From: a virus | Virus record (IMG/VR): IMGVR_UViG_3300043427_003424 | Span: 1 to 21,224 of that record | DNA: 21,224 nucleotides | Strand: one strand, 5' to 3' | Program-made: the position numbers and the translations under genes | Part shown: piece by piece, positions 2-20,881 of the stretch | How positions within the stretch are numbered: the first letter of the stretch is position 1 | How the letters are laid out: each line of letters opens with the position of its first letter | Notes under the pieces: generated by a model | What the model was told of the DNA's origin: nothing | Databases searched by the model: none | The model's input: the letters and a program-made list of their open reading frames with translations, nothing else

Positions 2-3000
2 TTTCAATTAAAATATGTTGCTGATCCTAGTGTTGTTGATGACACTAAAGCTTGGGATTATACTAAGTGGCCTGAAGTTGAATTTGTTGAAGAGTATATG
101 AAAGGATTAACACAGAAATTTAATCCGCCTGTTGCTCAAGAGCCTTTAGACTCGTCCAAATATACTAACATAGTTAATATAAATGCTTTAGAATTTCCTG
201 AGTTTTCTTTGGCGTATGCTAATAGAGAAGAGGTTAAATTTTTTTATGAAATATGGGAAAGACAATTTGTAACAGCTCATTACACGGGTTTATTTAGGGC
301 GGATAATCCACAATTTGATAAATTATTGGATGGAGTATTAGACTTTGAAAGTAAAAATATTGTTTCAAGTATTGGAATAAGTAATCCATATTTGGCGTTC
401 AAATTGAAAAACTATGAATTGAATGCTAAAATTTATCCTGGATTCCTAAGGAGTATTTCAAATAACGGAACAGGTAGATTTTATCAAGAATATATAAGAG
501 ACTTCTTTGTTACTCCATATCTTAAAGGTTTTCTAGAAACCCCAACATCAATACTAAAAGTTGATGAGTTGGGATCTATTCCACAATTAAGTGAAATAAA
601 TGTTTCGGAAAATATAAAAAGTGTGATAGATAGAGTATCCAATGAACCTACCGTGGTTGATACATATCCATTTACAGACATTAAATGGTGTTCAACAAAC
701 TTGGTGGGTTTTCAATACAATAGTGATGTTTCAAGATATAATACAAATAAAGTTATCACAATATTTGAGCAAAGAAATGTAATATCTAACTTTACAGATA
801 TAGATTCTTTTGTAAGAAATAGACCTGTAACTAATTTCTCTTATCTTAACTCACAGGATAAATCCGTTGGGTTAAACTCTTTCACTAATTTATCTGAAAT
901 ATATGTAAATTCTGAACCTACTGAATTTATGCCGACAGAGGGTTATGTAAGTGCAAATGCGCCATCATTGAACTATTTTGGTCGAGATATTGTTAATACA
1001 ACAACAAGCATGTTAAACACACCATATTTTATAAATGCAATACAAAAGGGTGTGGATCAGTGGAGAAGGAATGCTAAAAACCCTTACAAAGCGGCCGCAT
1101 ACTTATTCTTAAATTCTCTACCTCTAATTACCCTTAGAGAAAGAGTTAAATCACAATATTTGATTTCAGATGATAATACCCCTGCTGGTCAACAAACACC
1201 TGCGGGTCTAAATGATTTTGACTTCTTTTTTGCAACAATAAAAAAATTCGGAGCGGTACATAAACTACCTTACGCCTGGATTTTAAGGGCCGGTTCTTTA
1301 TGGCATAGATATAAGTTACATAAAGAAACAGGTGTTGATTTTATAGATGACGTGTGGAAAAGATTTGATGCGGTCACGAATTATGATCCAGTAACTAAAA
1401 GTTCTAATAAAGTTTATTCTTATATTGTTAATGGTGAAGAAAATAAAATAGTACTGCAAGATCAAACAACAGAGTCTATAAACATGAATGTTGGGTTCTA
1501 TCCTAAAGTGATTACCGACTTTAATGTATTCTATAACGGATATGATGTTTTCAAACAATATACAAATGAAGAATTACAAGATGCGGTAAATAATGGATTG
1601 AAAATTTGGGACTATCAAGGATCAAGACTTTCGAATATATCTCAAGGATCAACGTTATTGACTTTGAATACTAAGTCTATCATTATTCCTGCAAATATTC
1701 AAGTTACAATAACTGAAGAAAATTGTAAGGTTCCTGTTATTCAAAACATAGAAAATAATTACATATTACCATCTTTTGGAAGTCAGGTAAATGAAGTTAG
1801 ATCTGCATTGATTGAGCAAATAGGTACAGACAACCCATTTGTTGTTCCAGGATACTCTATTTCAGGTAATGATGCAGTTTTCAATGGAAGTGTTAGAATG
1901 TTTTGGAACTCACCAAATTACGGATATTTTAACTCATCTGAAATTGTTAAGCCAAGTACAGATTCTTACATGACCAAGGTACAAACAGACGCTAAGTTAA
2001 TGAGTCCGTTTAGGTTAATGAATAAGGATGAGTACACAAAAATAGATGATATGATTTCTGTTTTTGATAGAAAAACATTAGATCTTTTCGAGGATGAGTT
2101 CTTAAAGTTTTCTAATTCAGTTAATGATATTCAGAGTGGTGATTTAATTTCTGCACCGTTCAATAAATTTGTTAGTGATACAAATGCTCAGTATAAAAAC
2201 TTTCAGTACTTTATGAGAAATCTCATGAAAGTACCTCCAAAACAAGCCGATGAATCAGAAGAATTTTATTTTCAAAATATAGGTCAACAACAATATGGTA
2301 TTATTCAAAAACAAATTCAAAATTTTTTACAATTTGACATATTATTAAGAGTCGGTAATCCATCTGAATATAATAGACGAGTTTTTAATTCTTATTTGTC
2401 TCATGATTCGGCAACAATTAGTGTTGTTAATCCAATAAAGTTTGACCCTTATATTAAAAATACTTTACCATCGATGGGTGGTACAATAACATTATCACAA
2501 TCTAAACAACTATATCCAAAAGAATGGTTGGCTTTGGAATTGAATGTAGGATTTTCTACAATACCTGAATTAGAATATAAAAACAGTGGTTCATACATTA
2601 CAGATTTCTTTATCGATAATGACATAAAATTCAGTGTTGATAATATAGAAATTTTATCACCATTAATTAAAATGTATGCAACACAAAAACTTGATACGAC
2701 TGATACAACACCAAATAGTTTCAAAACTAAAATAAATCAGTTTTTAGACAAAACTAAAAAAACTCAAGATTATTTTATTGACGGAATAATTAACAGGTTA
2801 CAAGGGCCAGAATCGGATGGTGGTTTACCTAATTATTCTGAAGTTTCTGAAAAAAAGATTAATTCTGTTTTAGATGGGCAACAAAGTAAGGTTGAAAATT
2901 GGGAAGTATTTAAGGCGTTAAATGATAAGTGGATAGCTGGTGGAGATTATAATAATAAGACATTGTTTGAAGATATGTTATTTTTAGATAGGGCATCTAG

Positions 3001-4882
3001 AAATATTGGTGATACTTTATTAATTGATATTTTCGATTTGAAAAACGCAATTAACAAAACAATTCTTGGATCGGCAATACAAAATAAAATGTCGGTTTAT
3101 ACATTCATTTCTAGTATTTTAATTGATAATAATTTTACAATAATGAATTTACCGGCATATGTGAATTTTTATAATGTTACAAATGTTGATGGTACAAATA
3201 CATTTAGACCGGAAGGAAGTTTAGACTTTGCCAACAATATGTGGGGAACATTCTTAAATGTCGACTATAGGAATTCTTCACCGAAGATGGTGTGTTTTTA
3301 TGCCGGAAAACCGTCTAATTATGTTGCACTACCTGAAAACAAAACCTATATGTTTAAGGATGATGGTTTTGATTTAAGAAGAGCTTCCGAAAATCCTTTA
3401 ATTGAAAATTTAACAAACAAGACAGATTGGGGTTTATCAAACAGATGTGTTGGATTCAATGTTGATATAGGAATCAGAAATCAAAATATATTTTACGGAT
3501 TTAGTGTTGGCCAAGAAAATGGTAAAGCAACATCAGAAGCAATACAATCACAATTGAATATGATTAATCAAATTAATGGACAAAACACATCAACTCAAAA
3601 TGTAAGTCTATATAATTTATATAAACAGAGAAGTTATACATGTACTGTAACATCTTTAGGTAATGCATTGATTCAACCAACCATGTATTTTAACTTAAGA
3701 CATGTACCAATGTTTTACGGGCCATATATGATTACTGATGTTATACAAACAATAACACCAGGATCTTTTCAAACTCAGTTTACTGGAGTTAGACAAGGAA
3801 TATTTGATTTACCAACAATTGACAAATATCTCCAATCTATTAATCAAAATCTTTTAACTAAATTAGAGAAGTTCGTTCTAAATAAAGCGGATAGTATAGT
3901 ACCACCTAAAACAAATTATCAGAGCCAAGCGGATCAAAAATCTAAAGAGACTGACTCTAGAAAGCAACCACCTAACGCTTGTGACAATTCAGTTCTACCA
4001 ATTTATAAAGAAAAAGGTTTTGTTGCTACCTCAGCCCAAGAAGTTAAATTAACAAGAAAAGAAATGAGTGATTTGATAAATAGTGAATTGAGTAGGAGAC
4101 AAGGTACTCCTGACATTACACTTCAGGCAACAATGTACTCTATTTGTTATTTTAGTACCTTCAAAACCGAAGGCCAAGTCTTTATTGGTTTTAATAATTG
4201 TTATGCTACTCAATATGCGTTATCAAGTTCTTTTTCAACTTTTGAAACATTTTTCACTAAGACATATTGTTGTATGAAAAATGAAGGTCTTTCAGGGTCT
4301 TATCCTTTGCCAAATTTTAACTCCGCAAGTGATTTTATAAAGTTTCTTTTCTCTAGATTAGAAAAAAATGCAGATAGAATAAAAAAATTGGGTTTGTGGA
4401 AATTCTATTCATGTCATTTTCCAACGGACAAAATAGTCTCAGAGGAAGAGTTTGATAAAAATAAAAACACTAATGTTTCTTTCAAAAATATTAGAGACGT
4501 ATTAAACAAAGCATTAACTGATGCTAAAGGAGTTGGTATTGATGTTGGGGATATAAACTTATTCTTAGATGGACCAACACCACCTTCACAACCACAGCAA
4601 ACTGCAACCGTGCAACCATTATGTCCTGAGCCAGAAATCAATTCATTTGAACCTTTTTCAGCATATACCTCATCACCTTCACCTGAAATAACAATATATG
4701 GTACAAGTTTATATGGTAATACACAAGTTTTTATTGGTAATCAACCGTGTAATATAATAGAAAACACAGAAACAAAAATAGTTTTTGTCCCAACACAAAA
4801 GGTTGGTGGTAAGATTAAAGTAATAACTGAATATGGACAAGATGAAACACAAAGTCAATTTCAATTCATTTTCAGAAATTAA
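2..4882 (+). CDS. Giant tail/baseplate hub-like protein, 5' end outside window
   Basis: Seen: the frame is open from the first complete codon (nt 2), so this is a 5'-truncated gene; the ATG at nt 98 is only an internal Met. 1626 residues are visible. Counting from nt 2, residues about 1210-1271 (nt 3630-3815) run 'GNALIQPTMYFNLRHVP...GPYMITDVIQTITPG...TQFTGVR', a pattern like the hub domains of the gp27/phage late control D group. Residues about 1350-1475 are Cys- and aromatic-rich and could be a separate globular, perhaps wall-degrading, domain. Residues about 1547-1626 are an IPT/TIG-like beta domain (ITIYGTSLYGNTQVFIG), an Ig-like fold common in surface and tail proteins. The first 1200 residues I do not recognise. 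The length and beta-rich, Asn/Ser/Thr-rich composition suit a virion protein. Inference: a central baseplate hub or tail-tip protein; a tail fibre or large wedge protein is the alternative. Sure of a structural role, less of the exact one. Confidence 0.6.
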   Translation, partial: FQLKYVADPSVVDDTKAWDYTKWPEVEFVEEYMKGLTQKFNPPVAQEPLDSSKYTNIVNINALEFPEFSLAYANREEVKFFYEIWERQFVTAHYTGLFRADNPQFDKLLDGVLDFESKNIVSSIGISNPYLAFKLKNYELNAKIYPGFLRSISNNGTGRFYQEYIRDFFVTPYLKGFLETPTSILKVDELGSIPQLSEINVSENIKSVIDRVSNEPTVVDTYPFTDIKWCSTNLVGFQYNSDVSRYNTNKVITIFEQRNVISNFTDIDSFVRNRPVTNFSYLNSQDKSVGLNSFTNLSEIYVNSEPTEFMPTEGYVSANAPSLNYFGRDIVNTTTSMLNTPYFINAIQKGVDQWRRNAKNPYKAAAYLFLNSLPLITLRERVKSQYLISDDNTPAGQQTPAGLNDFDFFFATIKKFGAVHKLPYAWILRAGSLWHRYKLHKETGVDFIDDVWKRFDAVTNYDPVTKSSNKVYSYIVNGEENKIVLQDQTTESINMNVGFYPKVITDFNVFYNGYDVFKQYTNEELQDAVNNGLKIWDYQGSRLSNISQGSTLLTLNTKSIIIPANIQVTITEENCKVPVIQNIENNYILPSFGSQVNEVRSALIEQIGTDNPFVVPGYSISGNDAVFNGSVRMFWNSPNYGYFNSSEIVKPSTDSYMTKVQTDAKLMSPFRLMNKDEYTKIDDMISVFDRKTLDLFEDEFLKFSNSVNDIQSGDLISAPFNKFVSDTNAQYKNFQYFMRNLMKVPPKQADESEEFYFQNIGQQQYGIIQKQIQNFLQFDILLRVGNPSEYNRRVFNSYLSHDSATISVVNPIKFDPYIKNTLPSMGGTITLSQSKQLYPKEWLALELNVGFSTIPELEYKNSGSYITDFFIDNDIKFSVDNIEILSPLIKMYATQKLDTTDTTPNSFKTKINQFLDKTKKTQDYFIDGIINRLQGPESDGGLPNYSEVSEKKINSVLDGQQSKVENWEVFKALNDKWIAGGDYNNKTLFEDMLFLDRASRNIGDTLLIDIFDLKNAINKTILGSAIQNKMSVYTFISSILIDNNFTIMNLPAYVNFYNVTNVDGTNTFRPEGSLDFANNMWGTFLNVDYRNSSPKMVCFYAGKPSNYVALPENKTYMFKDDGFDLRRASENPLIENLTNKTDWGLSNRCVGFNVDIGIRNQNIFYGFSVGQENGKATSEAIQSQLNMINQINGQNTSTQNVSLYNLYKQRSYTCTVTSLGNALIQPTMYFNLRHVPMFYGPYMITDVIQTITPGSFQTQFTGVRQGIFDLPTIDKYLQSINQNLLTKLEKFVLNKADSIVPPKTNYQSQADQKSKETDSRKQPPNACDNSVLPIYKEKGFVATSAQEVKLTRKEMSDLINSELSRRQGTPDITLQATMYSICYFSTFKTEGQVFIGFNNCYATQYALSSSFSTFETFFTKTYCCMKNEGLSGSYPLPNFNSASDFIKFLFSRLEKNADRIKKLGLWKFYSCHFPTDKIVSEEEFDKNKNTNVSFKNIRDVLNKALTDAKGVGIDVGDINLFLDGPTPPSQPQQTATVQPLCPEPEINSFEPFSAYTSSPSPEITIYGTSLYGNTQVFIGNQPCNIIENTETKIVFVPTQKVGGKIKVITEYGQDETQSQFQFIFRN

Positions 4883-11713: not shown

Positions 11714-13570
11714 ATGGAAATTTCAAACAGAATTTTATCGGACATTACAGTATACATGAAGTATGCAAAATATGTCCCTGAGTTAAACAGAAGAGAGACG
11801 TGGAATGAACTTGTGACCAGAAACATGGAAATGCACATAAAAAAGTTCCCACAATTAGAGAAAGAAATTAGAGAGAATTACAAGTACGTTTATACTAAAC
11901 AAATTCTCCCCTCAATGAGATCAATGCAATTTGCGGGTAAACCAATTGAAATTTCTCCAAACAGAATTTACAACTGTGCTTTTGCACCTGTTGATGATTG
12001 GAGAGTATTTTCTGAAATTATGTTCTTATTATTAGGTGGAACAGGAGTTGGATACTCAGTACAAAAACATCATGTTGACATGTTACCTGAAATCAGAAAG
12101 CCTTCGAAAGAAAGAGGTAGAAGATGGTTGGTTGCAGATTCAATTGAAGGATGGGCAGATGCTGTTAAAGTTTTAATTAAATCTTATTTCTTTGGTGGTT
12201 CTCATATTATATTTGATTTCAGTGATATCAGACCAAAAGGTGCTAGATTAGTTACTTCAGGTGGTAAAGCACCTGGACCACAACCTCTTAAAGAATGTCT
12301 AATTAAATTAGAAGGAATTCTTGATGCTAAAGAAGATGGTGAAAAGTTAAGAGCGATTGAAGTTCATGATATGGTATGTCATATCGCAGATGCGGTATTG
12401 GCTGGTGGTATAAGAAGAGCCGCACTTATTTCGTTATTCTCAGCAACAGATGATGAGATGATTGGATGTAAGAGTGGTTCTTGGTGGGAAACTAATCCAC
12501 AAAGAGGTAGAGCAAATAACTCGGCTGTGTTGCTCCGACACAAAATTACAAAAGACTACTTCATGGATCTTTGGAAGAGAATTGAAGCTAGCGGAGCTGG
12601 TGAACCCGGAATTTATTTAACAAATGACAAAGATTGGGGAACTAACCCATGTTGTGAAATTGCGTTAAGACCGTTTCAATTCTGTAACTTGACAGAAGTA
12701 AACGTATCAAATGTTGTATCACAAGAAGATTTTGAAGACAGAGTTAGAGCGGCGGCTTTCTGTGGTACATTACAGGCGGGATATACAGACTTCCATTATC
12801 TACGACCAATTTGGCAAAGAACAACTGAAAAAGATGCTTTGATAGGTGTATCTATGACGGGTATCGGATCAGGTGCGGTTCTGAAGTTAGATATGAAATC
12901 AGCGGCTAAGATTGTTAAAGAAGAAAACAAGAGAGTTGCTGAGATACTTGGAATTAATCCAGCGGCAAGAACAACAACTGTAAAACCTGCAGGAACTACA
13001 TCATTAACTTTGGGAACATCAAGTGGAATTCACGCATGGCATAACGATTACTACATTAGAAGAGTAAGGGTTGGTAAGAATGAATCAATCTATACGTACC
13101 TGAAGGAAAACCATCCTGAGTTAGTTGAAGACGAATATTTTAGACCTCATGATACTGCGGTAATTAGTATACCTCAAAAAGCACCTGAAGGGTCAATTTT
13201 GAGAAACGAGTCTCCAATACAACTATTAGAAAGAGTTAAGAAAGTTCATACTGAATGGGTTAAACCTGGTCACAGAACTGGATCCAATTCACATAATGTT
13301 TCTGCAACAATTTCGGTTAGAGAACACGAATGGCCTGCGGTTGGTGAGTGGATGTGGGAAAATCGTGATCAATATAATGGATTGTCAGTTCTACCCTATG
13401 ACGGAGGATCTTATATCCAGGCACCTTTCGAAGATTGTACTAAAGAAAGATACGACGAATTGATGCAGACACTACATGATGTGGATCTTTCAAAGATTGT
13501 AGAGGTGGATGATAATACAGATTTAAGTGGTGAATTGGCTTGTGCTGGTGGAGCTTGTGTTTTAGTATAA
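11714..13570 (+). CDS. nrdJ: Adenosylcobalamin-dependent (class II) ribonucleotide reductase
   Basis: Role: reduces ribonucleoside triphosphates to dNTPs using a cobalamin-generated thiyl radical, feeding phage DNA synthesis. Seen: 618 residues against 739 in the monomeric Lactobacillus leichmannii enzyme. Active-site residues align with that enzyme: Cys88 (its C119), Asn311 (N406), Cys313 (C408, radical thiyl), Glu315 (E410) and Cys324 (C419); the C-terminal CAGGAC gives Cys610 and Cys615, matching the C731/C736 pair that re-reduces the active site. SIYNCAF-like, GGTGVGYSVQ and KPAGTTSLTLGTSSGIH blocks are also present. The C88-C313 spacing is 225 residues instead of 289, so the region that carries the allosteric insertion appears reduced. 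Unusual: the active site reads NPCCEI, with an extra Cys beside the radical Cys. No class I or III partner subunit is nearby, which fits class II. It stands between the replication and baseplate blocks, followed after 5 nt by a DUF5522-like gene. Confidence 0.9.
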   Translation: MEISNRILSDITVYMKYAKYVPELNRRETWNELVTRNMEMHIKKFPQLEKEIRENYKYVYTKQILPSMRSMQFAGKPIEISPNRIYNCAFAPVDDWRVFSEIMFLLLGGTGVGYSVQKHHVDMLPEIRKPSKERGRRWLVADSIEGWADAVKVLIKSYFFGGSHIIFDFSDIRPKGARLVTSGGKAPGPQPLKECLIKLEGILDAKEDGEKLRAIEVHDMVCHIADAVLAGGIRRAALISLFSATDDEMIGCKSGSWWETNPQRGRANNSAVLLRHKITKDYFMDLWKRIEASGAGEPGIYLTNDKDWGTNPCCEIALRPFQFCNLTEVNVSNVVSQEDFEDRVRAAAFCGTLQAGYTDFHYLRPIWQRTTEKDALIGVSMTGIGSGAVLKLDMKSAAKIVKEENKRVAEILGINPAARTTTVKPAGTTSLTLGTSSGIHAWHNDYYIRRVRVGKNESIYTYLKENHPELVEDEYFRPHDTAVISIPQKAPEGSILRNESPIQLLERVKKVHTEWVKPGHRTGSNSHNVSATISVREHEWPAVGEWMWENRDQYNGLSVLPYDGGSYIQAPFEDCTKERYDELMQTLHDVDLSKIVEVDDNTDLSGELACAGGACVLV

Positions 13571-13575
13571 TACCT

Positions 13576-13770
13576 ATGGAAAGTAAAAATAAAGAAAGGG
13601 AGAATCAAAATGAGATTCTCCCTTCTGATTATTATATAGAAAATAATAGAGTAGTATTCACTGAGGAATACCATATTAGAAGGGGTCACTGTTGTGGTTC
13701 ACATAATGGTTGTAGGCATTGCCCTTATGAACCAAAAGGACTTAAAGGGAACACTATACTAAAAAGTTAG
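13576..13770 (+). CDS. DUF5522-like Cys-rich small protein
   Basis: Function unknown. Start placed at ATG 13576, 5 nt after the reductase stop; an in-frame ATG at 13540 would overlap the reductase and add an unrelated Trp/Cys-rich stretch. Seen: 64 residues, a charged N-terminus, then FTEEYHIRRGHCCGSHNGCRHCPYEP (from about residue 30), the hallmark of the DUF5522 family, small proteins I know mainly from Bacteroidota genomes. Four Cys and two nearby His could bind a metal ion. Its coupling to the reductase suggests, without proving, a link to redox or metal/cobalamin chemistry. It is the only gene here ending in TAG. Possibly acquired from a host. Confidence 0.7.
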   Translation: MESKNKERENQNEILPSDYYIENNRVVFTEEYHIRRGHCCGSHNGCRHCPYEPKGLKGNTILKS

Positions 13771-13790: not shown

Positions 13791-14261
13791 ATGGCAAATG
13801 GTGTTACATATGGGTTAAATTTTCCGTTTCGTGATTCAAGGAAAGGAGATTATTTAGAACTTACAGAATTAGAATCGGAAGAAATAAGAGCCGATTTAAT
13901 ACATTTACTATTAACTCGAAAAGGTTCTAGATATTTTTTACCCACATTTGGTACCCGTCTTTATGAATATATTTTTGAACCTTTTGACGGATTAACATTT
14001 AGTGCGATTGAGACAGACATAAGAGATTCTGTTTCAACGTTCATGCCTAATTTAATACTAAACAACGTTTCTTTAGAACCAATAAGTACTGAAGATGAAG
14101 TTCCTGTAGGACCACCGGCAAGAGTTGGTACTGTTCAGGTATACGACATATATAGAGTACCTGGTAAAGGGACTGCAGATTACACGGCTAAGGTAAGAAT
14201 TGACTATACCATAGGAAATTCTGTTTTTGCTCAAAGTGATTTTGTTATTATCAATATTTAA
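13791..14261 (+). CDS. gp25-like baseplate wedge protein
   Basis: Role: gp25/GPW family protein that sits at the inner baseplate, contacts the gp6-type wedge and starts sheath assembly. Seen: 156 residues (T4 gp25 132). The core (about 10-115) shows FPFRDSRKGDYL, an early helix SEEIRADLIHLLLTRKGSRYFLPTFGTRLYEYIFEP, typical of the family with its conserved Gly-x-Arg and Glu-Pro, and a SAIETDIRDSVSTFMPNLILNNV helix and strand. The C-terminal extension carries the last beta strands. ATG 13791 is chosen over an out-of-frame ATG at 13784. Its leader carries TATATTTATG (13777-13786). It is followed after 5 nt by the gp6-like gene, the classic pairing. Confidence 0.85.
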   Translation: MANGVTYGLNFPFRDSRKGDYLELTELESEEIRADLIHLLLTRKGSRYFLPTFGTRLYEYIFEPFDGLTFSAIETDIRDSVSTFMPNLILNNVSLEPISTEDEVPVGPPARVGTVQVYDIYRVPGKGTADYTAKVRIDYTIGNSVFAQSDFVIINI

Positions 14262-14266
14262 TGTAG

Positions 14267-16105
14267 ATGGCAAATAATAAAATTTCATATACAGTCAGAG
14301 ATTATCAAGGTATTAGAGCGGAACTTCTTAATTATGTTAAACAATACTATCCTGATCTAGTTCAAGATTTTAGTGATGCTTCAGTTTTCTCAGTTTTTTT
14401 AGATTTGAATGCTGCGGTTGCCGACAACCTTCACTACCATATAGATAGGAGTATACAGGAGACTGTATTACAATATGCACAACAAAGATCATCAATTTAT
14501 AATATTGCCAGAACTTATGGTTTGAAAATACCTGGTGCAAGACCGAGTGTTTCTTTGGTTGATTTTTCTATAACAGTACCGGCTTTCGGAGATAAAGAAG
14601 ATGAAAGATATCTTGGAGTACTTTTAAGAGGTTCACAAATTTTAGGTGCGGGTCTTGTTTTTGAAAATGTTGAAGATATTGATTTTGCATCGCCATATAA
14701 TTCTTCGGGTTTTCCGAATAGATTAAAAATCCCGAATTTTAATTCAAATGGAGTTTTAATTAATTACACAATCACTAAGAGAGAGTTGGTTGTTAATGGA
14801 ATAACTAAAGTATATAAAAAAGTAGTACTACCAACGGATGTAAGACCATTCTTAGAATTATTTTTACCTGAAAAAAATGTATTGGGTATAACTAGCGTCT
14901 TGTTAAAAAATGGTACTGATTATACCAATATTCCACCAGCATCAGAATTCTTAGGATTGGCAAATAGATGGTATGAAGTTGATGCTTTAGCTGAAGATAG
15001 AATCTTTATCGAAGATCCAACCAAAGTTGCGGATCAACCTGGTATTAAAGTTGGTAGATATATCCAAACTAATAATAGATTTATTTCTGAATTTACACCT
15101 GAAGGCTTCAAAAAATTAACATTTGGAGGAGGGTCATCATCTTCACAAGATCAGTTAAATTTATTTACCAATTTTGGAGTTGAACCAACAATACAAAGTT
15201 ATTTCAATAATTTTTCATTAGGATCTACCTTAACACCTAACTCTACATTATTCATTCAGTACCGTGTAGGTGGTGGGCTAGGAACAAATTTAGGTCCTAA
15301 TGTAATTAATCAAGTTGGTACTGTGTCTTTTTTTGTTAATGGTCCATCGGACATAATAAATTCTTCAGTTCAAAATTCACTTAGGTGTGCAAACGTTACT
15401 GCGGCAATAGGGGGAGCAAATCAACCATCGATCGAGGAAGTTAGAAATTATGTTTCATTTAATTTTGCAGCTCAGAAAAGGGCGGTAACAGTTCAAGACT
15501 ATGAAGCTCTAATAAGGAATATGCCATCACAATTCGGAGCACCTGCAAAAGTTGCAATTACTGAAAAAGACAATAAGATTAATATTGAGATTTTATCATA
15601 TGATACTTCGGGTAAATTAACTAGTATTGTCTCAAACACGTTAAAACAAAATATTGCAAATTATTTATCCAATTATAGAATGATGAATGACTATATCTCA
15701 GTTGTTACTGCTGAAGTTATTGACTTGGCGGTTGAAGTTTCTGTGGTATTAACATCTAGTCAAAATTCAGGACAAATAATTGCAGATGTTATAGATAAGG
15801 TATCTGATTATTTTAATCCGTTGGTTAGAAACTTAGGTGAAAATGTTTATCTTTCTGAACTTAAAAGTATTATCCAAAATACAAACGGTGTAATTACTGT
15901 TACTGGAATCGATGTTTTTAATCAAGTAGGTGAACAATATTCTTCAGCTCAAACATCGATGCAATATGAGAATGAAGAAATAAAGCTAATACGTCCTGTA
16001 GATGATACTTTATTTGCTCAACCAAATCAAATTTATCAAATAAGATATCCAGCTAAAGACATTAGGGTCAGTGTTAAGAACTTTCAAAACGTTACTTTTA
16101 CTTAA
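14267..16105 (+). CDS. gp6-like (baseplate J-like) wedge protein
   Basis: Role: dimeric core wedge subunit that forms the inner ring of the baseplate with gp25 and gp7-type proteins. Seen: 612 residues (T4 gp6 660). The N-terminal region (YTVRDYQGIRAELLNYVKQYYPDLVQDFSDASVFSVFLDLNAAVADNLHYHIDRS, shown here in outline) is the usual gp6/J-like beginning; the middle is beta-rich and variable; residues about 400-500 (RAVTVQDYEALIRNMPSQFG, then INIEILSYDTSG and a helix with LSNYRMMNDYISV) form the conserved baseplate J-like core; the C-terminus ends in a beta region. It lies 5 nt after gp25 and before the giant gp7-position protein, with a 78-nt gap behind it. Confidence 0.87.
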   Translation: MANNKISYTVRDYQGIRAELLNYVKQYYPDLVQDFSDASVFSVFLDLNAAVADNLHYHIDRSIQETVLQYAQQRSSIYNIARTYGLKIPGARPSVSLVDFSITVPAFGDKEDERYLGVLLRGSQILGAGLVFENVEDIDFASPYNSSGFPNRLKIPNFNSNGVLINYTITKRELVVNGITKVYKKVVLPTDVRPFLELFLPEKNVLGITSVLLKNGTDYTNIPPASEFLGLANRWYEVDALAEDRIFIEDPTKVADQPGIKVGRYIQTNNRFISEFTPEGFKKLTFGGGSSSSQDQLNLFTNFGVEPTIQSYFNNFSLGSTLTPNSTLFIQYRVGGGLGTNLGPNVINQVGTVSFFVNGPSDIINSSVQNSLRCANVTAAIGGANQPSIEEVRNYVSFNFAAQKRAVTVQDYEALIRNMPSQFGAPAKVAITEKDNKINIEILSYDTSGKLTSIVSNTLKQNIANYLSNYRMMNDYISVVTAEVIDLAVEVSVVLTSSQNSGQIIADVIDKVSDYFNPLVRNLGENVYLSELKSIIQNTNGVITVTGIDVFNQVGEQYSSAQTSMQYENEEIKLIRPVDDTLFAQPNQIYQIRYPAKDIRVSVKNFQNVTFT

Positions 16106-16183
16106 TAAGTTTATTTATTGAACTATTAAGTTAAATTTTAATTGGTATTTTTTACCCTTAACTATTTATTCATTAAAGACCTG
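16106..16183 (+). other. Leader of the giant gp7-position gene
   Basis: A 78-nt gene-free leader between the gp6-like stop and ATG 16184. It contains two TATTTATT sites (16112-16119 and 16163-16170), the second 13 nt before the ATG. No exact TAnnTTTG promoter and no strong terminator; a GGTA/TACC hairpin (16144-16156) is too short to matter. Possibly a late promoter region. Confidence 0.4.
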
Positions 16184-19100
16184 ATGGGTTCAAGCTATAG
16201 AATTAAAACAGAATTAGGAACGACAAAAACAATAAATGTTGAACTTAACCAAGATTTTGAATTTTTAGAAATTCTTTCACTTAAAATTCAACAAGAAGAT
16301 GTTTATGATCGTAATTGTTCAGATTACGGATTAATCGTAGGTAGAGTAACCGCAAATAATGGGTTTGGTATACCAAATGCGAAAGTTTCGGTGTTTATTC
16401 CAATTAGTGATGCAGACCAATCAAACTCAATAATAACAAGTATATATCCTTATAAAAATCCTTTAGATGTAAATGAAGATGGATACAGATACAATTTATT
16501 ACCATATGAAAAATCATATAGTAAACATGCGGCAACAGGTACTTTCCCAAGTAAAAACGATGTTTTAAGTAATAACACAGCAATTGAGATATTTGACAAG
16601 TATTACAAGTTTACCGTAAAGACTAATGATAGTGGGGATTATATGATTATGGGGGTACCTGTAGGTTCTCAAACCATGGTTATGGATGTTGACTTATCTG
16701 ACATAGGAGAATTTTCTCTTACTCCTCAAGATTTAATAAGGATGGGAATAGCGACAGAATCTCAAGTTGCGGGTAATACATTTAGAACATCTTCAGACCT
16801 TAGCTCACTCCCACAAATAGTTTCAATCACAAAAAGTTTAGAAGTTTCACCTTTATGGGGAGATCCTGAATTGTGTCAATTTGCAGTTAATCGAGTTGAT
16901 TTTGATTTAAGAGATGATGCAAATATCGATATTCAGCCTACAGCTATTTTTATGGGATCAATTTTTTCAACACCTAACAAATTCAGGGTTAGAAAAAATT
17001 GTAAACCTAAAGATAACATGGGTAATTTATGTAATTTAATTGCAGGACCAGGTCAAGTTTTAGCTATACGACAAACTATAAGGGAAGATGAGGATGGGTT
17101 TCCAATTTTAGAGACATATAGTTTAGAACAATCAGGTAATATAATTGATGAGAATGGAACGTGGCTTACTGAATTACCTATGAATTTAGATTATGTTGTA
17201 ACTAATGAGTTTGGTGAAAGAATATTCTCACCAAATCCGGAGATTGGTATTCCTACTAAAGCAAAGTATAGATTCAAAATAAAGTGGCAACAACCAAATA
17301 AGTTAACAGGTAATACAAGAAGGGCTTATCATTTAGTACCTAATGTTAGAGAATATGGTTGGTATGGGGATATTGATCCTAATACATCAAATGTTAGTAG
17401 TCAGGCAAAAAAAGAATTGAAAGGATCTTATTATTTTGGATTAGATTGGAGTGGATATACGAATCCTAGTTCTGCGGTTGCATGTGAAGATACTTTTTAT
17501 GAATTTAATTATAATAGGGTTTATACTGTTTCGGGATTAATAGATCAATGGAAAAAAGGTGGAAGAGGCAGATTTATTGGTATAAAAGAAATTGATGATG
17601 ATTCTTGTTCAGACACCACTAATAAATTTCCAACTAATGACGGATTTAGAAACTTTGATTTTTTATTTTTTATATTTTCACTTTTATTTTTACAGATACA
17701 AATAATTGGATTAATAGTACTGATTGCCTCTCATTTTGTGGTGTGGCTCTTTGATAAGTTTATTAGTGCGATATGTGATATTTGTGAAGTTAGTATTTTA
17801 GGTGGATATCCGTTTAGGTTTATTTGTCGTAATCTAAATATTGATTGTAAACCTAGAGATTATACAATACGACTACCTATGATTACATATCCTGATTGCG
17901 ATGCGTGTGAATGTAAGGAAACTGAAGTAAGTGAATCTCGTCCTAAAGCGACATTAACAGGAAGCTTATCTTATTTATCGGGACCTACATATTATGTTAA
18001 TGGTTTACAAACTTATTTCGGTACAAATGAAAATAGTACAATATATAGTGTAGTTTATGGTCAAGCAATTGCGGGCAATAATTTAGAAATAACTAACACC
18101 GGTATATACAAGACACCTAAATCTGTACCCTTAAAGAGGATAACTGATGATTACTTGGTTTTTGCATATTCATATGATTTACCTATGGGTGAAAGAATTA
18201 ATGTGTTCAATACCAGGGATAGTTATTTTGATAATCTAAATAAAATAAAAGTAACGTTTGCTAAAGAGTCTAATTTAGGTAAGTATCATTTCGACAATAC
18301 AATAACAGTATTATCAACTCAATCTTATCAACCAGGACAATTATTAACTTCGGTAAACCCAACTTCATCTACTGATAAAAATTTCAATTATACTCAAACG
18401 ACAAATAACGGAGTGACATATGGTATCTCGGGGGTTAGTCAAAAAAACGCTTTTAATTTAACAACAAGATACGCAACAACTCAAATAACAGACTCTACTG
18501 TAGATTATTTTCTTCCAACAGGAACTACGGTTGAATCTCAAATTTATCCTATGGATAGGGAATATTTTCAAGTTATTACCGCAATAACTATTTCTGAAGC
18601 TGCGAAGTTATGGGATAATACTTCTCTTCAAACATTTCCAAATATTATAACCTCACCAACAAATGTTACATTAATGAGAAGTGTTGCACCTAATGGTGGG
18701 TTTGGAGTTTTTCAAGTAGAAGATTCAAAATCATTATATACTTCAGATTTATTTGAAAATTTCAATGATCAATATATTTTAATTCTACAAAGAGGAGTAG
18801 ACCCTTATTCACCAAAATATGTTAATGAGTATGGGTTAGGTTTGATTTTTGGGAAAAATATAGAAGATCCTAATTTTATAGTAACCGCATCAACCAGAGT
18901 TAACATTCCAATACAGAAAGTAAATTCAGGTTCTAATACTATACCTGAATTTAGTCCGATAAATATATATTATAGTTCTAGTTTCTTCACTCCTGGTGAT
19001 AATTTTAGTGCATTTACATCATCAACAATTGCTTATTATAGTAGTTTAGATGCTTCATTAACACCTAGCTCTCCAATATCGATACTCTCAGACTCTCAAT

Positions 19101-20881
19101 TTCAAGGTGCAACCGGAGTTGTAACAAGTACTTCAAATTATTTTTGGAATTCTCAAGAAAACTCAACTAAATACTCTAGTTCTGAAGACCTTACAGGATG
19201 TTCATTTATATACGGAAGACAGAACTCAGGAAGTATGTATGATGCATTTACATATGTCTATACAACTAAAAATTTATATCCTTCATTTACTGGTTCTCCA
19301 ATGAATATTGTAGATAAAACTAAAAATATAATGAGAACTGATAGGTTACCTTCATCAGATAAACTTGATGGTTATACTTGGGAACTTAATCCTTCATTAT
19401 TACAACAAAACAATAATTTTATTTTTTATGAAATACCTGAGCCTACAGAACCGTTACGATCTGGATTATATACTACAGGTGCTCAACAAGTTCAACCGGA
19501 TTTAGATGGACAACCTTTAGAATTGACTGTTCTAACTAGTTTCGATTGTGCTGGTATGGTTGGTCTCAGTTGTTATTCGGGTGATAGCTATTCTTTTGGA
19601 ATAAAGGAAAATTGTGAAGAAACGGATTATGTGGAAAGAGGTTGTTATGTTTTTTTGAAAAGACCTTTAAGTGGTTTAGGTAGAGATATTAATAATTTTA
19701 ATGAGTGGGCATACAGATTTAGGTTTTTCTATGGATTATGTAGAGGGGTTCTAGCACAATCTTTTGTAAATAATTGGGTAAATGGGTCTTTATATGCGTT
19801 CCCAATACAAGTCGACACGTTTTATGATAAACAAAACAAACCTAAACCACCAATTTTTTGCAATAATTTAGTTTATTTTGACCAGGCAACTACAAACTTC
19901 TATTATAGAAGTAGTCCATATAATTTGAATAGTAATGCATTTGTTGGAAAGATTAGTACTGAACCAACAGCAATAAATGACAGAAATCTTCTGTTCCCAA
20001 CTACCATAATTAATTTAGGTCCTAAAGATGTATTTTGGTCAGAAATTTCTATGGAACCATCATTCAAAGGATATATTATGAATCAGTTAGACTCGACAAG
20101 TTATGGGGATACTTCTGATTTAATAAATTTATTTGTTATAAGTAGGATTACTGACGAAGGATTTTTAGAAAGACTAGTTCAGTTAGGGGACAATTCGTTA
20201 AATCAATTATTCAGTAGAAATGGTTCTGATAGAAGAATCGACGGTGATTTAGCACAACTACTGTCAATAAACTCAGAAGAGGGAGTTATTAAATTTTCAC
20301 CTGAGTTTTATGGTTCAGGTGCAAAATTAGGAGACCCAATAGTAATTTTAGGATCCTTAAATAACCCAACATTAGGTGTTTTCTTTTCATCAACAACTGA
20401 AGATTTACAATTCAAAGATTATTTAACTCCGGGAAGAATTGATTACAGACCTGCAAATAATGCTAAAGCAATAGGTTATAACTACGGAATAAAATCACAA
20501 AGAGTTCCTTTTTACAGATGGGAACTTAAAAATGGTAATTCAATATTTGGAAGTGAAAGAAACAATTGGAAAACAAATTATAGTAATGACGTTGCTCTAA
20601 CAGGAATTTTCAGTAGGGAGTATCAATCATTGGATAGAACGGGAACAACAATACCATCATATTTTATTTCTTCAAATGCGCAAATTAATGATACTTATGC
20701 TAGAGGTTATATATTCAATGTCTCTGCGGATACAATAAATAACGAAACCATATTTTCTCCTTATGCGGGAAATTGGAATGGGTCATTCTTAGTTGGTGCT
20801 CCGTTTCATTTTTATTTTGGAACAGTTATAGGGGCGACTGCGATAGATAGGTTCAAAGAAAAATATTCGGTAGATGAATAA
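16184..20881 (+). CDS. Giant baseplate-locus protein with Ig-like domain, membrane-like helix and Cys cluster
   Basis: Start placed at ATG 16184; the frame is open back to a TTG at 16142, but TTG is unlikely and would add a Phe/Leu-rich stretch encoded by the leader. Seen: 1565 residues. Residues about 48-165 are a carboxypeptidase-regulatory-like (Ig-like) domain (GLIVGRVTANNGFGIPNAKVSV, later TNDSGDYMIMGVPVGSQTM) with a large insertion. Residues 493-523 are a 31-residue uninterrupted hydrophobic segment. Residues 531-577 contain seven Cys (CxxC, single C, single C, CxxCxC). The rest is Ser/Thr/Asn-rich, beta-type, with further Cys near 1130-1180. By order gp25-gp6-this it occupies the slot of T4 gp7 (1032 residues), a peripheral wedge protein. 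Inference: a large wedge or membrane-contacting baseplate protein. Stop overlaps the next ATG by 8 nt. Confidence 0.75.
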   Translation: MGSSYRIKTELGTTKTINVELNQDFEFLEILSLKIQQEDVYDRNCSDYGLIVGRVTANNGFGIPNAKVSVFIPISDADQSNSIITSIYPYKNPLDVNEDGYRYNLLPYEKSYSKHAATGTFPSKNDVLSNNTAIEIFDKYYKFTVKTNDSGDYMIMGVPVGSQTMVMDVDLSDIGEFSLTPQDLIRMGIATESQVAGNTFRTSSDLSSLPQIVSITKSLEVSPLWGDPELCQFAVNRVDFDLRDDANIDIQPTAIFMGSIFSTPNKFRVRKNCKPKDNMGNLCNLIAGPGQVLAIRQTIREDEDGFPILETYSLEQSGNIIDENGTWLTELPMNLDYVVTNEFGERIFSPNPEIGIPTKAKYRFKIKWQQPNKLTGNTRRAYHLVPNVREYGWYGDIDPNTSNVSSQAKKELKGSYYFGLDWSGYTNPSSAVACEDTFYEFNYNRVYTVSGLIDQWKKGGRGRFIGIKEIDDDSCSDTTNKFPTNDGFRNFDFLFFIFSLLFLQIQIIGLIVLIASHFVVWLFDKFISAICDICEVSILGGYPFRFICRNLNIDCKPRDYTIRLPMITYPDCDACECKETEVSESRPKATLTGSLSYLSGPTYYVNGLQTYFGTNENSTIYSVVYGQAIAGNNLEITNTGIYKTPKSVPLKRITDDYLVFAYSYDLPMGERINVFNTRDSYFDNLNKIKVTFAKESNLGKYHFDNTITVLSTQSYQPGQLLTSVNPTSSTDKNFNYTQTTNNGVTYGISGVSQKNAFNLTTRYATTQITDSTVDYFLPTGTTVESQIYPMDREYFQVITAITISEAAKLWDNTSLQTFPNIITSPTNVTLMRSVAPNGGFGVFQVEDSKSLYTSDLFENFNDQYILILQRGVDPYSPKYVNEYGLGLIFGKNIEDPNFIVTASTRVNIPIQKVNSGSNTIPEFSPINIYYSSSFFTPGDNFSAFTSSTIAYYSSLDASLTPSSPISILSDSQFQGATGVVTSTSNYFWNSQENSTKYSSSEDLTGCSFIYGRQNSGSMYDAFTYVYTTKNLYPSFTGSPMNIVDKTKNIMRTDRLPSSDKLDGYTWELNPSLLQQNNNFIFYEIPEPTEPLRSGLYTTGAQQVQPDLDGQPLELTVLTSFDCAGMVGLSCYSGDSYSFGIKENCEETDYVERGCYVFLKRPLSGLGRDINNFNEWAYRFRFFYGLCRGVLAQSFVNNWVNGSLYAFPIQVDTFYDKQNKPKPPIFCNNLVYFDQATTNFYYRSSPYNLNSNAFVGKISTEPTAINDRNLLFPTTIINLGPKDVFWSEISMEPSFKGYIMNQLDSTSYGDTSDLINLFVISRITDEGFLERLVQLGDNSLNQLFSRNGSDRRIDGDLAQLLSINSEEGVIKFSPEFYGSGAKLGDPIVILGSLNNPTLGVFFSSTTEDLQFKDYLTPGRIDYRPANNAKAIGYNYGIKSQRVPFYRWELKNGNSIFGSERNNWKTNYSNDVALTGIFSREYQSLDRTGTTIPSYFISSNAQINDTYARGYIFNVSADTINNETIFSPYAGNWNGSFLVGAPFHFYFGTVIGATAIDRFKEKYSVDE

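Follow-up and report, generated by a model that had tools for sequence, protein, structure and literature searches.

A conserved hydrophobic helix with flanking cysteine motifs in a giant baseplate-locus protein of uncultured contractile-tailed phages: a candidate for baseplate-membrane contact

How a contractile tail holds on to, and passes through, two host membranes is only partly understood. Among the described systems, the thylakoid-anchored CIS of Anabaena is a contractile-tail machine whose baseplate-associated parts contact a membrane: the TM helix of Cis13 is needed for anchoring, and the baseplate part Cis12, whose extension includes a putative amphipathic helix, touches the membrane (PMC8894136). 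In Cis13, a small tail-fibre-like trimer, the TM helix is C-terminal, whereas the giant protein described in this work has an internal helix with flanking Cys motifs; the two Anabaena proteins are likened to it by role, and no sequence relation is claimed. Tail-tip proteins of non-contractile systems have also been proposed or reported to put hydrophobic segments into the host membrane, namely the RcGTA megatrons, whose N-termini are proposed membrane pore formers (PMC7296036), and the phi29 tail, whose pore-forming loop is cited there for hydrophobic insertion into the host membrane on delivery (reference 50 of PMC7296036). Their segments are of another type and belong to other protein families, so that the comparison concerns mechanism only. 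In lambda gpL and the RcGTA hub, four Cys residues of a tail-tip protein hold an iron-sulfur cluster (PMC10721106, PMC7296036); the giant protein likewise has four conserved Cys, which form a candidate metal site, but their spacing is different and the resemblance is again one of role.

The nearest counterpart by gene position is gp7 of T4, a monomer present in six copies per virion (PMC3004832). The sequence-only reading had held that the T4 wedge proteins lack any membrane-type segment, which is wrong: residues 886-904 of T4 gp7 are TM-like (KD 2.07), six divergent T4-like gp7 proteins are likewise hydrophobic (1.67-1.79) and free of charge in the corresponding columns, and the GenBank record for T4 gp7 notes its C-terminus as a predicted integral membrane domain. 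Like the giant protein, gp7 is large, is encoded after gp6 in the baseplate cluster of a contractile phage and has a conserved TM-like segment; however, the two show no detectable homology, and the segment of gp7, located close to the C-terminus, is the shorter and weaker one and has no accompanying Cys motifs.

The window analysed here is a stretch of 21,224 nucleotides of viral DNA (IMG/VR record IMGVR_UViG_3300043427_003424, positions 1 to 21,224). The features relevant to the giant protein are the following.

13791..14261, + strand: gp25-like baseplate wedge protein (PF04965, E=7.6e-11; phrog_261)
14267..16105, + strand: gp6-like baseplate wedge protein, Baseplate_J (PF04865, E=8e-6; phrog_219, E=4e-25)
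16184..20881, + strand: giant 1565-aa baseplate-locus protein with helix and Cys motifs; in nearly all relatives gp6 immediately precedes it
16184..17596, + strand: N-terminal domain, residues 1-471, the best-conserved part of the giant protein
residues about 44-250, inside the N-terminal domain, + strand: weak carboxypeptidase-regulatory/CnaB-like beta-sandwich (PF13620, below cut-off)
17606..17608, + strand: C475, invariant Cys ahead of the helix (43/43 and 46/46 distinct relatives)
17621..17641, + strand: NKFPxND motif, residues 480-486, ahead of the helix (N480, P483 and N485 near-invariant)
17660..17752, + strand: hydrophobic helix, residues 493-523, with a polar seam of S499, T/Q503, Q506 and H517 (family consensus positions)
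17732..17734, + strand: H517, near-invariant His in the hydrophobic run (45/46 and 42/43 relatives; 64/68 clusters)
17774..17848, + strand: variable linker with the lineage-specific Cys pairs C531/C555 and C534/C548, identified by Cys pairing counts
17882..17914, + strand: ITYPDCDACEC motif with C572, C575 and C577 (46/46 distinct relatives of the window's family)
17915..20878, + strand: C-terminal part, residues 578-1565

The open reading frame of the giant gene spans 16142-20881, and the conserved MGxSYRI start of the relatives sets its initiation codon at ATG16184, giving 1565 aa. Whole-protein searches returned no significant Pfam, PHROG or PDB sequence match. PF13620 scores 11-18 bits against the giant protein and thus does not reach its curated threshold of 32.3, and the fold search with the N-terminal model retrieved generic beta-sandwiches with Z of at most 5.8, a value under the level that the tool calls reliable (best match: 2.9 A over 92 residues). 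Residues about 592-1090 are predicted, mostly with confidence, as a beta-rich domain; the C-terminal model gave nothing at E<0.001 against PDB and BFVD, and Z did not exceed 2.9 in VIA. The structure models are long and partly poor. In one relative (L047, 4989-5849 and 5834-9838) the giant gene appears as two overlapping reading frames, by frameshift or assembly error.

Relatives of the giant protein number hundreds in IMG/VR. Searching the fetched loci with an HMM built from the N-terminal ~470 residues gave 352 ORFs, which were reduced to 170 distinct superfamily members by removal of near-duplicates. A hydrophobic 24-mer is found at the same position, just after the N-terminal domain, in 158 of these 170; the twelve exceptions comprise eight contig edges, one uncertain case (L124) and three helix-less proteins (L121, L123 and L281). 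An NxFPxN-type motif is present in 115 of the 158. The viromes in question, with habitat labels read off the metagenome names, are freshwater, marine and rumen/gut, and four representatives compared with 50,697 phage records, in a search for cultured relatives, found no match.

Among loci with room for it, gp6 is encoded no more than 600 bp upstream in 171 of 172 of the window family, in 73 of 75 of the marine/freshwater group and in 66 of 77 of the rumen/gut group. The helix-less L121, L123 and L281 are short or divergent relatives that also lack the CxxCxC motif, and no gp6 or gp25 homologue was detected upstream of them within the available sequence; the presence of the helix thus follows the gp25-gp6 context. 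The sequence-only reading had named homologues without both hydrophobic run and Cys cluster as evidence against itself, and these three distant proteins are the only ones of that kind. A scan found no relatives of L123, and the region upstream of L281, in which no gp6 was detected, encodes a protein with a KSKGHRK motif resembling that of tail protein I. The best explanation of the family as a whole is that the giant protein is a virion or tail-assembly component of a large uncultured clade of contractile phages.

The assignment of this protein to the "gp7 slot" holds as far as its position directly after gp6 is concerned, but the search for similarity to T4 gp7 was negative. Comparison of the family profile by hhalign gave E of 0.44 against T4 gp7 and 0.93 against a seven-member gp7 profile, values with which a shared fold is still compatible, and the giant protein has neither a PF09684 or PHROG wedge hit nor a tail-protein-I-type domain with the KGT motif. 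Sub-threshold PF09684 hits (E 0.03-0.1) were obtained instead in proteins of about 1000 aa encoded elsewhere, in four of eight genomes. An example is the ~996-aa protein of L008 (17295-20282), encoded five genes downstream of the giant gene, which carries KSKGTRRSVEFMLRLIGAP, a stretch resembling tail protein I and the T4 gp7 stretch STKGIEASYKFLFKVL. A direct profile comparison on this protein was not significant, yet its alignment covers just the KSKGTRRSVEFMLRLIGAP stretch. We regard it as a lead that the gp7/gpI-like wedge partner of gp6 is probably the ~996-aa downstream protein, and that the giant protein is therefore probably something additional to this wedge component. The proteins encoded after gp6 in Flavobacterium phage immuto and Microcystis phage Mel-JY01 were considered as homologues and rejected, as they gave no significant match; the ORFs after gp6 in these two phages and in LR756508 contain no TM-like segment.

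Residues 493-523 of the giant protein (FLFFIFSLLFLQIQIIGLIVLIASHFVVWLF) contain no Asp, Glu, Lys or Arg, exactly as had been noted from the sequence; the accompanying description of a run of Phe, Leu, Ile and Val applies to most of the stretch, though not purely, as S499, Q504, Q506, S516 and H517 are part of it. The best 31-residue mean hydropathy is 2.40 (p=0.00005 against shuffles of the same protein), and the best 24-mer and 19-mer likewise stand out from the shuffles (p=0.00035 and p=0.004, respectively). A 24-mer with hydropathy (KD) of at least 2.1 occurs in 240 of 311 family proteins; among the other ORFs in the fetched loci with a length of 200 aa or above, 1095 in all, a single one has such a 24-mer. 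An alignment of 43 diverse members has almost no charged residues in columns 493-523 and places its conserved polar positions (499, 503, 506 and 517) on one face of the helix. The hydropathy spectrum of the window family has a sharp peak at 100 degrees (p=0.0001), which recurs in two other groups with z about 17. In the AlphaFold2 model of the N-terminal part, which is poor overall (mean pLDDT 49, with values under 50 at 434-492 and 562-600), residues 487-534 form a single helix and score better than any other stretch. The insert is one unbroken hydrophobic helix, some 31-40 residues long, along which a narrow polar seam runs; a re-entrant hairpin, prompted by the central G/P residues, was dropped because the 100-degree periodicity is unbroken over 31 columns. 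This helix module is real, conserved and, among the ORFs of the locus, unique. The helix is uncharged, hydrophobic and long enough to span a bilayer.

Further hydrophobic segments accompany it in part of the family. The linker between H517 and the YPxCxxCxC motif ranges from 18 to 131 aa, and many of its versions hold one to three additional hydrophobic segments; as the total count varies from one to four and its parity is not constant, no TM topology can be assigned from the counts. At one loop near window residue 1018, 18 relatives carry a second hydrophobic insert, which is rich in Gly and Ala, is 45-60 aa long and comes in at least two sequence types. This second insert, near residues 1010-1075, is found in L003, L004, L005, L011, L039, L040, L042, L129 and others, and is not present in the window protein. 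We infer that such gain and loss of hydrophobic inserts fits lipid contact better than a packed core.

We therefore consider the helix as a putative membrane-contacting element, either freed on contraction or serving as an assembly anchor, a reading that the sequence evidence leaves evenly balanced. In the free particle the helix would pack on neighbouring subunits via its polar seam; upon contraction the baseplate would rearrange, so that the hydrophobic surface could enter the lipid bilayer and anchor the baseplate there. Alternatively, insertion might occur earlier, during assembly, at the inner membrane of the producing cell. Shielding must be assumed for membrane contact, as free virions would aggregate if their helices were exposed, and the helix-less L121, L123 and L281 count against it.

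The strongest competing explanation, which we judge to fall somewhat short of an even chance, is that the helix is an ordinary structural one, if very hydrophobic, which lies buried between subunits of the baseplate, in the style of a wedge-core bundle, and never enters lipid. T4 gp7 provides a precedent, since it belongs to a soluble virion and yet has a conserved TM-like segment, and for this reason hydrophobicity alone is no proof of membrane contact. The polar seam, typical for helix-helix packing, fits packing within a helix bundle equally well, and the near-invariant H517 suggests a specific contact. On the other hand, most of the 24-residue cores have no charge at all over dozens of divergent lineages, and the existence of helix-less homologues means that the helix is not a universal core element. 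It is mainly because the hydrophobic additions in the linker and in the second loop come and go that we prefer membrane contact over the buried helix.

Within membrane contact, a narrower variant would have the helix anchor nascent baseplates to the inner membrane of the producer, while playing no part in the infection that follows. The protein is synthesised in the cytoplasm, where a TM-like helix could insert at once, and the Cis13 TM helix holds the Anabaena CIS inside its own cell (PMC8894136). However, the sequence offers nothing that separates assembly from infection, and the disulfides that the pairing of linker Cys points to would form more readily outside the cytoplasm; we consider this variant unlikely.

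The Cys residues that follow the run were counted correctly by the sequence-only reading as seven in 47 residues, at positions 531, 534, 548, 555, 572, 575 and 577, a density reached in none of 2000 shuffles of the giant protein. Their conservation is uneven. C572, C575 and C577 of the YPxCxxCxC motif are constant and, together with the upstream C475, are co-conserved in all 46 distinct relatives; across the superfamily as a whole, 100 of 158 members have a YPxC motif after the helix, and 118 of 158 have at least four Cys within 150 residues. This pattern suggests a four-Cys metal site formed by C475 and C572/C575/C577, which would pin both ends of the insert. In contrast, C531, C534, C548 and C555 are variable. 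Of the linkers of window type, 22 contain the complete set of four and 12 the outer pair alone, with one of each class placed after a shifted slot had been corrected; none has an unpaired member of the set. By parsimony, the number of linker Cys changed 18 times, in 16 cases by an even number. As C531/C555 and C534/C548 are retained or lost as pairs, nested C531-C555 and C534-C548 disulfides are suggested for some lineages, where they may stiffen the linker. That all seven Cys make up a single metal or disulfide collar, as initially proposed, is very improbable: the window protein and many close relatives do carry all seven, but only C572, C575 and C577 of them are invariant, and the other four, missing from many relatives, behave as two optional pairs.

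Taken in full, the membrane-contact scenario would be that the clade carries a dedicated, metal-pinned helix that plants the baseplate in a host membrane on contraction, with extra hydrophobic segments in some lineages and no T4-type counterpart found. We hold it tentatively, as a possibility rather than an expectation.

A Bacteroidota host is plausible for the window. Its UvsX is closest to that of Flavobacterium phage immuto (42%), start sites are mostly without a Shine-Dalgarno sequence, and two of four MAG hits are to Bacteroidota, the others being to Wolfebacteria and Mycoplasmatota bins; the promoter motif TTTG-N17-20-TAnnTTTG has three matches versus 1.2 expected, which is uninformative on the host. 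The neighbourhood contains several other genes worthy of mention. A B12-dependent (class II) ribonucleotide reductase is encoded at 11714-13570, and at the same site, between a DnaB-like helicase and gp25, L008 (1974-5501) and L063 (2109-5502) have a two-gene pair resembling NrdB and NrdA of class I; one enzyme type appears to have been exchanged for the other at this locus. A small DUF5522 protein with the CCGSHNGCRHCPY motif (13576-13770, E=2e-15) lies between the reductase and gp25. The 1594-aa protein at 98-4882, with an IPT/TIG domain at its end and no PHROG match, may be a giant hub or some other structural protein. In L014 an extra ORF (16480-17124) with two CxxC motifs (SKCNIEKPFEDF...), homing-type-nuclease-like, is located among the structural genes.

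A description of the helix module would aid annotation of a family that has no Pfam or PHROG name and is unmatched in the phage records searched. The helix, which hundreds of IMG/VR contigs encode at the baseplate locus, is a testable candidate for direct contact between baseplate and membrane.
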